Source: Clostridiaceae bacterium
GTDB lineage: Bacteria > Bacillota > Clostridia > DSM-8532
Assembly: GCA_012719545.1 (NCBI GenBank)
Contig: JAAYAD010000101.1
Location: forward strand, 1 to 64,000
Length of the DNA: 64,000 nucleotides
Reading direction: 5' to 3'
Every line of letters begins with the position of its first letter. Within the stretch, counting starts at the first letter, position 1. The translations under genes and the position numbers were made by a program. Below are positions 57,869-63,262 of the stretch, in pieces. The notes beneath the pieces are model-generated. The model saw nothing but the letters and a program-made list of their open reading frames with translations. It ran no database searches and was not told the origin of the DNA.

Positions 57869-59059
57869 ATGATTAATATAAGTGAAGAGCTTTCTAATTT
57901 TCAGCCCATTGATATTGAGAGCGTTGAGCAGAAAATAGGCTCCATACCCGAGGACATGAAAAATGCCATAGAATTATACAACAAGGCATTGGATGAAATC
58001 AGCAACAATAATGAGGATATTGCTATAATCGCTCTTAAAAAGGCAATATCAATCTATCCGGCTTTTTATGAAGCAATGAATCTTATGGGGATCTGCTATG
58101 TCTCTATTGGAGATGAAGACAGTGCCCGGGCAATGTTTAAGAAGGTCATTGATATGGATGACAACAGTGTCAGGGCATCACGTTACCTTGCCAGTCTTGA
58201 CGGAAATGTAAGTCCGGAGGGTGTAACAAAATCCTCCAGAAGAAAGAATCAGCCTTCCGGATTTTCAACACTTGCGTCCTGGCTTGCAAGCGGCCTTTCA
58301 CCTGAACGAAGCAAACCCTATTTTATAAAGTACATAATTGGATTTGTGGCAGGTATTCTGGCAATGTGCCTGTTATGGATTTTTATACCCGACCATAGTC
58401 CGATTATTATTGATGTTAAATCAGCTCTCGGAAAATCTTCCAAAGAGCAGCAGGTAATTGACCAGCTGACCAAAGAAAACAGGGATCTCAACAATCGCCT
58501 TACAGAGGCCCTGCAGGCTCTTGAAACAGCAAAACAGACAGAGAAGAACCTCCAGGACCAGATGGAACAGTATATTGTATGGGCTGACACTTTGAGAAAT
58601 CTTCAGGACTTGGCTGCTGCTGGAAAGTATAAGGATGTTGTAACTGCAGTGGAGAGCTTTGAAGGCGAGCCGCCCAAGAAAATTAAGGATGAGATAAATA
58701 ACCTTTATAATCAGGTTAAATCAAAGGCTATAAAGCAGTTCTATGACTCGGCCAGAAACATATACAACTCCAACGCAAAGGCACAGGATGTTGAAGTGTA
58801 CAAAAAGGCGGCGGATGAATACCGGATGGCAATAAAGCTCATTGAGGAGCTCAATGAAAATCCTGCTTACATAACCGAAGTATATTATTACGGAGGAAAG
58901 GCTATTGCCCTGTCCCAGTATCCAAGCAAGCAGGAAGCAGAGGCTGAGGCAGTACGCTGCTTTGATGAGGTTATAAGAATTGCTCCCGGCTCAAAGCTTG
59001 CTTCCTATGCCAGAGCCAGAATAAATCAGATAGAAGCAGGAGAAACCATTAAGCACTAA
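57869..59059 (+). CDS. TPR - membrane helix - coiled-coil protein of unknown function
   Basis: A 396-residue protein with a clear layout: cytoplasmic TPR repeats (residues ~28-110, e.g. AIELYNKALDEISNNNEDIA, YPAFYEAMNLMGICY, DEDSARAMFKKVIDMD), a linker, one membrane helix (~150-173, YIIGFVAGILAMCLLWIFI), a coiled coil (~190-235) and an outer helical domain with a second TPR-like unit (KAIALSQYPSKQEAEAEAVRCFDEVIRIAPGSKLASYARARI). It resembles YbgF/CpoB-like and BamD-like scaffold folds but is no clear member. GGAGG precedes ATG 57869. It ends 4 bases before the convergent ATP-grasp gene. Confidence 0.75.
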   Translation: MINISEELSNFQPIDIESVEQKIGSIPEDMKNAIELYNKALDEISNNNEDIAIIALKKAISIYPAFYEAMNLMGICYVSIGDEDSARAMFKKVIDMDDNSVRASRYLASLDGNVSPEGVTKSSRRKNQPSGFSTLASWLASGLSPERSKPYFIKYIIGFVAGILAMCLLWIFIPDHSPIIIDVKSALGKSSKEQQVIDQLTKENRDLNNRLTEALQALETAKQTEKNLQDQMEQYIVWADTLRNLQDLAAAGKYKDVVTAVESFEGEPPKKIKDEINNLYNQVKSKAIKQFYDSARNIYNSNAKAQDVEVYKKAADEYRMAIKLIEELNENPAYITEVYYYGGKAIALSQYPSKQEAEAEAVRCFDEVIRIAPGSKLASYARARINQIEAGETIKH

Positions 59060-59063
59060 TAGC

Positions 59064-61643
59064 CTAAAGGCTTTCTCCTTCTATGCAGACCGTCTTTTCC
59101 GAGGCGGTATCGGATAGAAGCAGCAAATTCATGGAACTTGTATCATATACCTTTACGATATCAAAAATGCTCTTTTCATCAGGGAGCATTTTTTTTATAA
59201 GTTCATGGCATTTACTAAGTAGCTCCGGCCTGTATATTACATCTTCCTGGTTTTCAAAAATTGCGGCATAGAAGATGCCTGTTTCAACTAAGTCCTGGAA
59301 AAAGTGGCTTCCGTAGGACAATTCAGGCATATATCCCGCACCTTCGTAAGAGACCTCGCAAATGGCTTTTATATTGCTTATTTCCGCAAATTTAACCGGA
59401 ACTCCCAATTCGGGGGATGAAGTTCCCCAGCGCCCCGGGCCAATCAGAAGGATATTTTTATCCTGTTTTTTTAACAGGCTTGTAATTTTGCCTATGGCTC
59501 GGGCTGTCTGATACTTAATATTCATGGGACATAAGTAATAGGCTTTTGGTTCAACCAATATAACAGTATCAATGGGCTGGTATATGGAACCACCCATGGT
59601 GGAGCCTGAAACAGAGAATAAGAGCTTCTCTTTAGGACATTGGGGAATCTTGACTTTAAAGCCAAGTCCCCTTACCTGAAGGGGTCTGCACTGAAGAAGG
59701 TTAAATGCAAATTGCCCGCTTTCGTCAAGGTTAATGGTAAATTCTATATCCACAGGATAGCTGTAATTTTCCTGTATGGTATTAAGCAAATCCTTAATGT
59801 AGCTTATTATTTCTTTATTATTTATTATGCCCTCGCATCTGGAATAAAGGACTTCCCCTTTAATGCCAAGCTCTTTCATGCGTTTTTCCGCTTCCAGGTC
59901 ATGCTCAATCATAATGTTTTTATACCAGTCAGGAAGCATGGCTGACAGCTTATCAAGGGGAAGGGTCATGAATGCGTTTTCCGAAAGGTTTAAAACGTCC
60001 GCAAAACGCTGGGAAAATCTTATTTTATCATTACCTGATAATGGCGTTAAGTGGGGCTTATCCAATGATATCGAACGGGGATAATCGGAATCGGAGCGGT
60101 CAACGGCACGGGTTCCAAGACCCATTACCATGCGTATAAAGCCCGCTTTAGGGTCAATTTCCTTATTCCACACATAGGAGTTATATGAATAGCCAACACC
60201 TGCGGCGCAGGGCATAAAAATCCTGTCAAAGCGCGAACCTGAAACCCTCTGGACAAGAATGGCCATTTGCTCGTCATTGTTGTCGAGGCCTCTCTCTTTT
60301 CGGTATATAAGGGCTGATTCGTCCATTGAACTTGCATAGACCCGGCGAATGGCATTCTCAAAAGCCTCGAGCCTTTCGTCAGGGTTTCCTGCGTTAACGC
60401 AGAAAATAGACTCATATTTTCCGGCGAAGGCATTGCCAAAGCTGTCCTCTAAAAGACTACTGGATCTTACAATGATGGGATTCTGCCCGAAATACTCAAG
60501 CATGCGCCTGAACTGCTCTCTTATGCTATCCGGGAAGGAGCCTTTAAGAATTCTTGCCTTAAGCTCCCTTGCCGCGCTGAAATAGCCCTCGGCAGTCCTT
60601 TGCTTTATGCGTATCTTCCACCATCCGTTTTGAACAAGATAGGTATAAAATACGTCGGAACCGATATAGAAGGAGTCGTGGGGTTCTAAGTGCCTGTACA
60701 GGTCAGGTCTTGAATTCTCCAGAATTTTTCTTGCAAGGAGCATTCCGGTGGCTTTTCCGCCAATGCTTCCTGAGCCTATCATTCTTTGTTTTATATGAAG
60801 AAAATCCTGCAATGTAAAATTCTTTTGCACAAGGTCGGTAAGCCTTTGCTCTTTACCCATGAGCATTTTGCAAAGCTTTTTTAAAGTATCGCTTTTTAAA
60901 ACCCCGGATTCCTGATCCTGTTTTGCTTTTATGAAAAACCTGTCCCAATTGTCAAGAGCCTGGTCGCTGTGGACAACGCCCTGGCTTGCCACAAGGGCAT
61001 AAAACCTGCTTGCGCTTATTCCGTCAGTCAGAGGCAGGAAAAGCCCCTGCATGCTGTCAAACTTGTGGGGGAGAAACATTGTCTGGGAATAGCGCTGCCA
61101 AGCCTTGATAGGATGAACATATAATTCGTCGCCGCTTCTGTAAACATCTATAAGAAGCTGGGTTGTCTCACGAATTCTGGCGATGGTTTCATAGGAATGG
61201 CGGTTTCGCAAAATGCCGAAATAGGCAACGGTATTCATTTCAAAAAGGTAGGGGCATGTGACCCTGAAGAAATTGCCCATCATAAGGTCAGACGCCCATG
61301 CGGACTGAAGCTCTGACAGAAAGTCAAATACATAATAAGCGCCGCGGCCTTCCCGGGTTATGATTTCATGAACCTTAACTGTGAAGTTTTCAAAGCCCGA
61401 ATCGGCGTCAAGATGGTATATTTTTAAGCCGTCCTGCTCATAAAGCAGGGGCTGGTGTTCCGCAAAGCGCATATATATGATATTTCTTTTTTCCTCGATG
61501 GCCTGTTTTACAAAGGCCTCAACAAAAAATGCATAGTCTGATATGTCAGAAAGCTGGAATACAACATTGTCTCCCAGACGTATGGAATCAAGAATCTTAT
61601 CCAATCCTGATATGCCTGAAGAAATCCTGTCGAAAGAGGCCAT
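59064..61643 (-). CDS. degenerate KaiC-like domain fused to a PPDK-type ATP-grasp domain
   Basis: An 859-residue protein in three parts. Residues ~1-260 look like a RecA/KaiC-type domain (DRISSGISGLDKILDSI at the start) but the P-loop place reads GDNVVFQLSDISD, so ATP binding there is doubtful. Residues ~285-700 match the N-terminal domain of PEP synthase/pyruvate phosphate dikinase: IGGKATGMLLA, PIIVRSSSLLEDSFGNAFAGKYES, and NLLQCRPLQV. The remaining ~160 residues (LLIGPGRWGTSSPELGVPV, YGSHFFQDLVETGIFY) are of unknown type. There is no phosphohistidine swivel domain and no PEP-binding barrel, so it cannot run the normal dikinase cycle alone. GGAG precedes ATG 61643. It follows the PPi-phosphofructokinase gene but a terminator lies between. 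Confidence 0.8.
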   Translation of the reverse strand: MASFDRISSGISGLDKILDSIRLGDNVVFQLSDISDYAFFVEAFVKQAIEEKRNIIYMRFAEHQPLLYEQDGLKIYHLDADSGFENFTVKVHEIITREGRGAYYVFDFLSELQSAWASDLMMGNFFRVTCPYLFEMNTVAYFGILRNRHSYETIARIRETTQLLIDVYRSGDELYVHPIKAWQRYSQTMFLPHKFDSMQGLFLPLTDGISASRFYALVASQGVVHSDQALDNWDRFFIKAKQDQESGVLKSDTLKKLCKMLMGKEQRLTDLVQKNFTLQDFLHIKQRMIGSGSIGGKATGMLLARKILENSRPDLYRHLEPHDSFYIGSDVFYTYLVQNGWWKIRIKQRTAEGYFSAARELKARILKGSFPDSIREQFRRMLEYFGQNPIIVRSSSLLEDSFGNAFAGKYESIFCVNAGNPDERLEAFENAIRRVYASSMDESALIYRKERGLDNNDEQMAILVQRVSGSRFDRIFMPCAAGVGYSYNSYVWNKEIDPKAGFIRMVMGLGTRAVDRSDSDYPRSISLDKPHLTPLSGNDKIRFSQRFADVLNLSENAFMTLPLDKLSAMLPDWYKNIMIEHDLEAEKRMKELGIKGEVLYSRCEGIINNKEIISYIKDLLNTIQENYSYPVDIEFTINLDESGQFAFNLLQCRPLQVRGLGFKVKIPQCPKEKLLFSVSGSTMGGSIYQPIDTVILVEPKAYYLCPMNIKYQTARAIGKITSLLKKQDKNILLIGPGRWGTSSPELGVPVKFAEISNIKAICEVSYEGAGYMPELSYGSHFFQDLVETGIFYAAIFENQEDVIYRPELLSKCHELIKKMLPDEKSIFDIVKVYDTSSMNLLLLSDTASEKTVCIEGESL

Positions 61644-61737
61644 AGTTCCAGCTCCTTAAAATAAGTGATAATTTATTCTAGCATACTTAAGGGTTATTTA
61701 TCCATTCAGATGAAAAAGCCGTTTTATCCTGTTTATT

Positions 61738-61772
61738 AAAAAATACCTCCCTGAAAATAAATCAGGGAGGTA
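61738..61772 (-). terminator. terminator of PPi-phosphofructokinase
   Basis: Perfect 11-bp stem TACCTCCCTGA/TCAGGGAGGTA (61744-61754, 61762-61772), followed on the minus strand by six T (61738-61743). Confidence 0.9.
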
Positions 61773-61830: not shown

Positions 61831-63084
61831 TTACTTTGTAGCAAGAACCTTCTTAAGCTTAGCAAAGCGAGGCAGTCCATCCTCAATGGGAGGTCTGGAT
61901 TCGCCTTCAATAAGAGGCAGAGCGTAATCAATGAAGCTCTGAGTCAGGCCGGTACCGTCCTCGGTAATCCATTCGCGAGGAATCTTCTTTTCTGTGTTTG
62001 CAACCTCAGAAAGGTTAACAAGCACATATTCGCAATGGTATTTGCCGTCTTTTTCAGTTCTCTTGTATGCAACCATGTGGTCGGTAACACCTTCAACAGC
62101 AAACTGAACAGCCTTCTGACCAGCTGTGAAAGCTTCCTCAACGTCGGTAGCGGAAGCGCAGTGAGCTGCACATCTCTGAAGGAGTGAGAACTCAATGGCG
62201 CGAGCCTTGCACTTAAGTTCTTTCTTAAGAACATTTGCAAGAACCTGTGCGGTTCCGCCCAGCTGAGCATGTCCGAAGGAATCCTTTTCTTTTGCAAGGT
62301 CGGAGCCGTACTCGGAAATATATTTGCCGTCCTTGTCCTTAACGCCTTCGGATACGGCAACGATTAATTTACCGTTGTTCTTCTCGTATACTCTCTTGCA
62401 GTCTGCAATGAACTTGTCCATATCAAATACGATTTCAGGCAGGTAGATAAGGTCAGGACCTGCACCCTTGTATGAAGCAAGAGCGGTAGCTGCTGTGAGC
62501 CATCCTGCATTTCTTCCCATTACTTCAAGAACGCAAACCATAGGAGTATCATAAACGCGTGCGTCATGATAAACTTCCATGGTAGCTGTTGCTACGTACT
62601 TAGCAGCGCTTCCGTAGCCAGGGCAGTGGTCGGTAGCGTAAAGATCGTTGTCAATGGTCTTGGGAACGCCGATAACGCGGCATTCATAACCAGCCTTCTG
62701 CATAAACTTGCTTACCTTGTTGCAGGTATCCATGGAGTCGTTACCGCCGTTGTAGAAGAAATATCTGATGTCATATTTCTTGAATACTTCCAGGAGTCTG
62801 TTGTAGTCTGTAGGATCCTTGTCGGGATCTGCCAGCTTGTAGCGAACAGAACCCAGAGCGGATGAAGGAGTGGTTTTTAAGAGTTCAAGCTCTTTTGGGT
62901 CTTCCTGAGACATATCGTAGAATTTTTCTTCGAGAATACCGCGAATACCGTTTGCTGCGCCGAAAACCTTCGGAATACAGTCGGTCTTGAGAGCTTCGGT
63001 GATAACACCGGCTGCACTTGCGTTAATAACAGAAGTGGGGCCGCCGGACTGACCGAAAATAGCGTTGCCAACTAATTTTGCCAT
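61831..63084 (-). CDS. pfp: pyrophosphate-dependent 6-phosphofructokinase
   Basis: A 417-residue phosphofructokinase. GGNDS (113-117) and PKTIDND (141-147) are the key sites; Asp/Asn after GG and Lys in PKTIDND are the features that distinguish PPi-using enzymes from ATP-using ones (GGDGS, PGTIDND). It should convert fructose-6-phosphate and PPi to fructose-1,6-bisphosphate and Pi, reversibly, as in several cellulolytic clostridia. ATG 63084 follows GGAGG by 8 bases; the frame begins 5 codons earlier. Transcribed alone. Confidence 0.94.
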   Translation of the reverse strand: MAKLVGNAIFGQSGGPTSVINASAAGVITEALKTDCIPKVFGAANGIRGILEEKFYDMSQEDPKELELLKTTPSSALGSVRYKLADPDKDPTDYNRLLEVFKKYDIRYFFYNGGNDSMDTCNKVSKFMQKAGYECRVIGVPKTIDNDLYATDHCPGYGSAAKYVATATMEVYHDARVYDTPMVCVLEVMGRNAGWLTAATALASYKGAGPDLIYLPEIVFDMDKFIADCKRVYEKNNGKLIVAVSEGVKDKDGKYISEYGSDLAKEKDSFGHAQLGGTAQVLANVLKKELKCKARAIEFSLLQRCAAHCASATDVEEAFTAGQKAVQFAVEGVTDHMVAYKRTEKDGKYHCEYVLVNLSEVANTEKKIPREWITEDGTGLTQSFIDYALPLIEGESRPPIEDGLPRFAKLKKVLATK

Positions 63085-63262
63085 GTTGTTTGCCTCCAAT
63101 CAAAATATATTATAGTTTTACTGTTAACGCATTGCTGAAATAATTAGCAGTAGGAGTTTGTGTATTATTTAACAGCAAATAATATATCATAAAGCTCTAT
63201 GTCGTGCAATGAAGAAAATAGATACATATTGAAAACCTTAATATTTATATTTTATAGATTAT

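Follow-up and report, generated by a model that had tools for sequence, protein, structure and literature searches.

We found that an 859-residue protein encoded in the window (the whole stretch of 64,000 nucleotides analysed here) joins an N-terminal KaiC-like domain without a P-loop, a dikinase-type ATP-grasp domain and a C-terminal domain that is probably a strongly diverged phosphohistidine swivel. Our main reading, to which we give a probability of about one half, is that it is an autophosphorylating regulator of ammonium assimilation, derived from dikinases of the PPDK/PEP synthase type and analogous to VadK. The protein is widespread in bacteria and apparently unstudied; in the open-access literature we found no report on the family, nor on a link between a PPDK-like protein and glutamate dehydrogenase (GDH).

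The gene is an intact ORF whose start codon is preceded by a ribosome-binding site (AAGGAGCTGGAACT-ATG), and its features are listed in Table 1. Beyond the PPDK_N match, Pfam gave no credible match on the 859-aa protein, and NCBIfam returned PEP-synthase matches only, all of them below threshold. A Pfam match to Topo-VIb_trans (E 0.015) was found in one of 55 members and was rejected as chance. A gene for a TPR membrane protein (57869-59059, forward strand) converges on the 859-aa gene with a gap of 4 bases, and the same arrangement is present in L141, the nearest relative (70% identical, same genus).

Table 1. Features of the 859-aa gene and its surroundings, in positions of the window.
Feature	Position	Strand	Basis
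Intact CDS, 859 aa: pseudo-KaiC / PPDK_N ATP-grasp / probable divergent swivel domain	59064..61643	-	ORF
KaiC-like RecA-fold domain without P-loop, residues 1-220	60984..61643	-	VIA Z 21.3 and motif scan
Helical linker, residues 221-292	60768..60983	-	Secondary structure of the model
PPDK_N ATP-grasp domain, residues 293-665	59649..60767	-	Pfam PF01326, E 3.9e-50; Foldseek
K297 codon, counterpart of Lys22 in RPH and PPDK	60753..60755	-	Conservation; PMC4844700
R393 codon, counterpart of Arg117 in RPH	60465..60467	-	Conservation, alignment
E634 codon, Mg-binding Glu position (Glu297 in RPH)	59742..59744	-	Conservation, alignment to PEP synthase
Q651 codon, inside LLQCRPL motif	59691..59693	-	Conservation
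C-terminal domain, probable divergent phosphohistidine swivel, residues 666-859	59067..59648	-	Model, VIA, profile alignments
H780 codon in SYGSHFFQDL, proposed phosphohistidine	59304..59306	-	Conservation, helix start, PPDK alignment
Terminator-like hairpin, 11 pairs then T-run, after PFP gene	61744..61772	-	Sequence
Promoter-like site TGGATA-18-TAGAAT, TG before second hexamer	61675..61704	-	Weak: such sites are no commoner than chance
Neighbouring gene, diphosphate--fructose-6-phosphate phosphotransferase (PFP), outside the system	61831..63099	-	NCBIfam NF010675, E 1e-174

The source genome carries one copy of the gene. Full-length relatives with 43-71% identity were present in further genomes at each level from genus and family to class and phylum, and full-length relatives about 50% identical occur in many genera. 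A scan of GTDB species genomes gave at least 575 encoding stretches, and the 80 of these that we examined came mainly from Lachnospiraceae and other Clostridia, and also from Planctomycetota, Omnitrophota, Deltaproteobacteria, Actinobacteria and one Methanobrevibacter bin. In this last bin the gene (L106) is full-length and lies on a 123-kb contig among archaeal-looking neighbours, possibly as a transfer from bacteria. One orthologue (L004 in genome G009, 71% identical) has one TGA and one TAA within the match, reflecting either a broken gene or an assembly error. No relatives were found in a plasmid search.

Four architectures share the ATP-grasp/C-terminal core. Architecture A, that of the window protein, has the KaiC-like N-terminus and about 860 aa. 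Architecture B (about 1060 aa) starts with about 330 aa without assignment and ends with a nucleotidyltransferase domain (PF01909, E 7.8e-10), and architecture C (about 575 aa) consists of the core alone. A receiver domain (PF00072, E 8.7e-8) was found in architecture D (about 1000 aa; for example, L209) and in no other. A variable N-terminus on a constant core suggests exchangeable sensors and thus signalling. Besides, a separate nucleotidyltransferase gene (PF01909) adjoins a core-only C protein at L037:3419-3781 and in L212 (start 10314), mirroring the fusion seen in B.

In the AlphaFold2 model of the full protein (55 sequences, mean pLDDT 87.6, pTM 0.86), residues 1-220 matched the CII domain of KaiC by VIA with a Z of 21.3 (rmsd 3.1 over 204 residues), which identifies a RecA/KaiC fold. 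Foldseek concurred for the same residues, and a profile alignment to true KaiC domains gave a weak signal (P 0.0018) in the expected register. PF06745 (KaiC) matched none of the 55 members at E 1, and a P-loop (Walker A, GxxxxGK[ST]) was found in none of 95 orthologues. The domain is strongly conserved, including a TCP motif and D107, which is invariant in all 94 of 94 orthologues and sits at the end of a strand, as a Walker B Asp would. On this evidence, the KaiC-like domain is a pseudo-ATPase. Thus, the fold and the degenerate nucleotide site proposed for the N-terminus in a preliminary description of this DNA were both borne out. With its ATP site lost, the domain would probably sense a ligand or partner or drive oligomerisation, and gate the swivel.

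The ATP-grasp part (PPDK_N, E 3.9e-50) had its best Foldseek matches to rifampin phosphotransferase (RPH; E 1.2e-13). Residues K297, R393, E399, D400, E634, Q651 and R653 were invariant in the 94 orthologues and in the three related architectures, one gap excepted: K297 is present throughout A, B and D and in 17 of 18 C proteins, the remaining one having a gap at this position. D632 is also conserved, but is Glu in architecture D, and position 412 is Ser or Thr. In the alignment, K297 (matched by motif), R393, S412 and E634 correspond to Lys22, Arg117, Thr136 and Glu297 of RPH, of which Lys22, Arg117 and Thr136 are required for resistance (PMC4844700). The invariant residues and their RPH counterparts lead us to expect, from sequence, that this domain binds ATP and transfers a phosphoryl group. 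This agrees with the preliminary description, which considered the dikinase-type ATP-grasp module well conserved and suggested ATP-dependent phosphorylation.

The C-terminal domain directly follows the ATP-grasp domain, in the order seen in PEP synthase and PPDK, and its core is conserved across relatives, as had been noticed before. When it was modelled alone (residues 658-859, 57 sequences, pLDDT 94.7), ranks 2-10 of VIA-align were nine PPDK entries (5jvn, 5jvj, 5lu4, 5jvl, 1vbg, 1vbh, 2r82, 2x0s and 1kbl), all matched at the central, swivel phosphohistidine domain. These matches covered the whole model (1-202) against PPDK residues about 371-516, with rmsd 3.2-3.7 over 110-124 residues and Z values of 5.3-6.2, which can reflect merely a common arrangement, a Z below 8 being unconvincing on its own. 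Further VIA-align rows (chaperonin apical domains, RraA and the isopropylmalate isomerase small subunit) represent the same swivelling beta/beta/alpha fold. The family profile aligned with PEP synthase without a break from the end of the ATP-grasp domain into the first swivel strand (ILFELKGSSMGGS with VILKGLGASPGIG), and a local profile alignment with PPDK, extended at low posterior, placed SYGSHFFQDLVETGIFYAAI on the TSHAAVVARGMG segment and H780 on the catalytic His. A global profile alignment of the family with PPDK was unsuccessful. Several other searches were negative: Foldseek gave no match for the C-terminal domain below E 0.001, the profile of this domain alone compared with canonical swivel domains at P 0.41, and its matches among PDB sequences were chance matches only. 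The Pfam swivel family (PF00391) did not match the 859-aa protein, and the four PF00391 places in its own genome all lie outside the gene. Based on the PPDK matches, the position after the ATP-grasp domain and both collinear profile alignments, we assign the domain as probably a swivel that has strongly diverged.

H780 begins helix 780-787 in both models, which corresponds to the helix bearing the catalytic His in PPDK, and is conserved in 94 of 94 proteins of architecture A, 22 of 22 of B, 14 of 18 of C and 3 of 3 of D. We consider it rather likely that this residue is phosphorylated. The four exceptions, core-only relatives L038, L043, L044 and L047, carry Arg at this position instead (GTRFFHDL); here phosphotransfer may have been lost or the chemistry altered. 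The PEP/pyruvate barrel (PF02896) gave no match in the protein and has no room, as the chain stops at the end of the C-terminal domain. The preliminary description regarded both the phosphate-receiving and the phosphate-passing domain as missing and the acceptor as something unknown, and named a hidden C-terminal swivel as evidence against this view. The absence of the barrel stands, but a swivel is probably present, so that phosphate would most likely go first to His780 of the protein itself.

The process that such a module might control is suggested by gene neighbourhoods. A survey of these, which the preliminary description had proposed, pointed to GDH and ammonium assimilation. At least one nitrogen-assimilation gene was present in 24 of 98 architecture A loci, directly adjacent in 20 of them, and in none of the control loci (18 C loci and 20 arbitrary 20-kb stretches from A-bearing genomes). 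The neighbours were GDH (12 loci), Amt (9), the large part of glutamate synthase (6), GlnN (5), NifA-like (5), GltD-like (4) and PII (3). These counts were obtained with simple longest-ORF gene calling, flanks of varied length and few controls; representative genes for GDH, Amt and the sigma-54 activator were verified with Pfam, and the other labels reflect phmmer similarity to neighbours identified by eye. Approximately three quarters of the orthologue loci had no nitrogen gene within the flanking DNA examined, and on a FastTree tree the nitrogen-neighbour label changed at least 13 times, in both halves of the tree. Architecture B, apparently undescribed, lay directly downstream of gdh on the same strand, at a distance of 19-257 bp, in 15 of 15 loci (L217, L218, L219, L220 and L225-L235), which come from several families, and may tell more than the window protein does. 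In L132 and L133, the pair of GDH and A genes is accompanied by a protein of about 620 aa that by eye resembles a PrkA-type kinase. Nitrogen-assimilation genes were found neither among the scanned genes of the window, which are ordinary genes of cell division and translation, nor in the adjoining stretch, nor near the gene in L141; GDH and Amt of the source genome are located on other contigs. The role of the window copy is thus inferred from its relatives, and gene proximity does not establish regulation.

Taken together, these data are consistent with a plausible regulatory role, in which the ATP-grasp domain would move phosphate from ATP onto His780 of the diverged swivel. Because the PEP/pyruvate domain is absent, the phosphohistidine, or the conformational state that goes with it, would serve control rather than PEP synthesis. 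The regulated process would most likely be ammonium assimilation, with GDH as the leading target or partner. More tentatively, the whole family may consist of phosphohistidine regulators of GDH and ammonium assimilation in several bacterial phyla, with exchangeable N-terminal sensors on a common core; the gdh-linked form adds a nucleotidyltransferase, and two covalent modifications could then meet at one branch point.

Other explanations were also considered. In one of them, the protein would act in nitrogen metabolism as a small-molecule dikinase or ligase, comparable to rifampin phosphotransferase, HpeHI or prodigiosin ligase, and would pass phosphate from ATP through His780 to a metabolite that binds to its KaiC-like domain or to a different one. 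Barrel-less dikinases with the same two domains do exist (RPH, PMC4844700; HpeHI, PMC12167813), and the KaiC-like domain is conserved at D107 and the TCP motif as a binding site would be. However, the core stays constant while the N-terminus is exchanged among KaiC-like, unassigned, receiver and none, which fits a signalling module better, and what surrounds the gene is a set of enzymes, transporters and regulators serving one process, not a pathway without its kinase step; we therefore consider this explanation unlikely. Still less probable is a catalytically silent adenine-nucleotide sensor, in which ATP would close the ATP-grasp domain and alter partner binding and phosphohistidine would never form. 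The modest structural scores behind the swivel assignment and the few short relatives without the His would suit such a sensor, but invariance of the tested catalytic residues and of H780 in 94 orthologues would be unexpected without catalysis.

The preliminary description favored a swivel-less ATP-dependent kinase of an unknown acceptor, or a PPi sensor, and tied it to PPi-phosphofructokinase, directly downstream of which it placed the gene. The PFP gene does adjoin the 859-aa gene on the same strand, and the canonical swivel family is not detected by sequence, both in keeping with this proposal; yet the strong terminator-like hairpin and the promoter-like site separate the two genes, L141 has no PFP neighbour, PFP was near the gene in 1 of 98 orthologue loci (2 under looser clustering), and the C-terminal domain resembles a swivel. 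With the survey pointing to GDH, the link to PPi and phosphofructokinase is unsupported, and we regard this version as very improbable. A PFP operon was rejected on account of the hairpin, L141 and the survey.

For Clostridia of the gut and rumen, Planctomycetota and their relatives, little is known to us about how GDH and ammonium assimilation are controlled post-translationally. If a regulator derived from a dikinase is indeed at work, it would be a concrete and testable candidate for such control, present in hundreds of genome contigs. It would also be a further example of dikinases that became regulators, a theme recognised recently, and of a KaiC fold put to use as a sensor that is not an ATPase.

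Among known systems, VadK (Rv1127c) of mycobacteria is an autophosphorylating histidine kinase, a truncated PPDK whose Mg-ATP-dependent autophosphorylation is lost in His422Ala and which binds, and is proposed to regulate, enzymes of the methylcitrate cycle (PMC13400623). If the swivel assignment holds, the window protein shares with it an ATP-grasp and a phosphohistidine domain without a PEP/pyruvate domain, as well as the proposed regulation of metabolic enzymes by interaction. In contrast to this truncated canonical PPDK, the window protein has a swivel unrecognisable by sequence and a pseudo-KaiC domain, and the process linked to its family is ammonium assimilation. Response regulators that combine a receiver domain with PPDK have been mentioned for Bacteroides and Heimdallarchaeota (PMC5847659), and we infer that the D relatives of about 1000 aa are these proteins; they have the same ATP-grasp and C-terminal domains behind a sensory N-terminus, which in the window protein is KaiC-like instead of a receiver. 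Rifampin phosphotransferase and HpeHI, the latter an example of rearranged ATP-grasp and swivel parts (PMC12167813), are similar in their ATP-grasp domain and probably in the His swivel mechanism, but have a substrate-binding domain and a canonical swivel, neither of which was recognised in the window protein. KaiC and KaiC-like RecA ATPases share the N-terminal fold (Z 21), whereas the window protein lacks Walker A and a Pfam KaiC match and is fused to a dikinase module. With PPDK and PEP synthase it has in common the ATP-grasp catalytic residues and probably the order of ATP-grasp and swivel, and it differs in the missing PEP/pyruvate barrel and the strong divergence of the probable swivel. 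Finally, PTS-Ntr (EI-Ntr/PtsP) would be similar in signalling nitrogen status through phosphohistidine, but it is driven by PEP and has a barrel and an HPr-type carrier.
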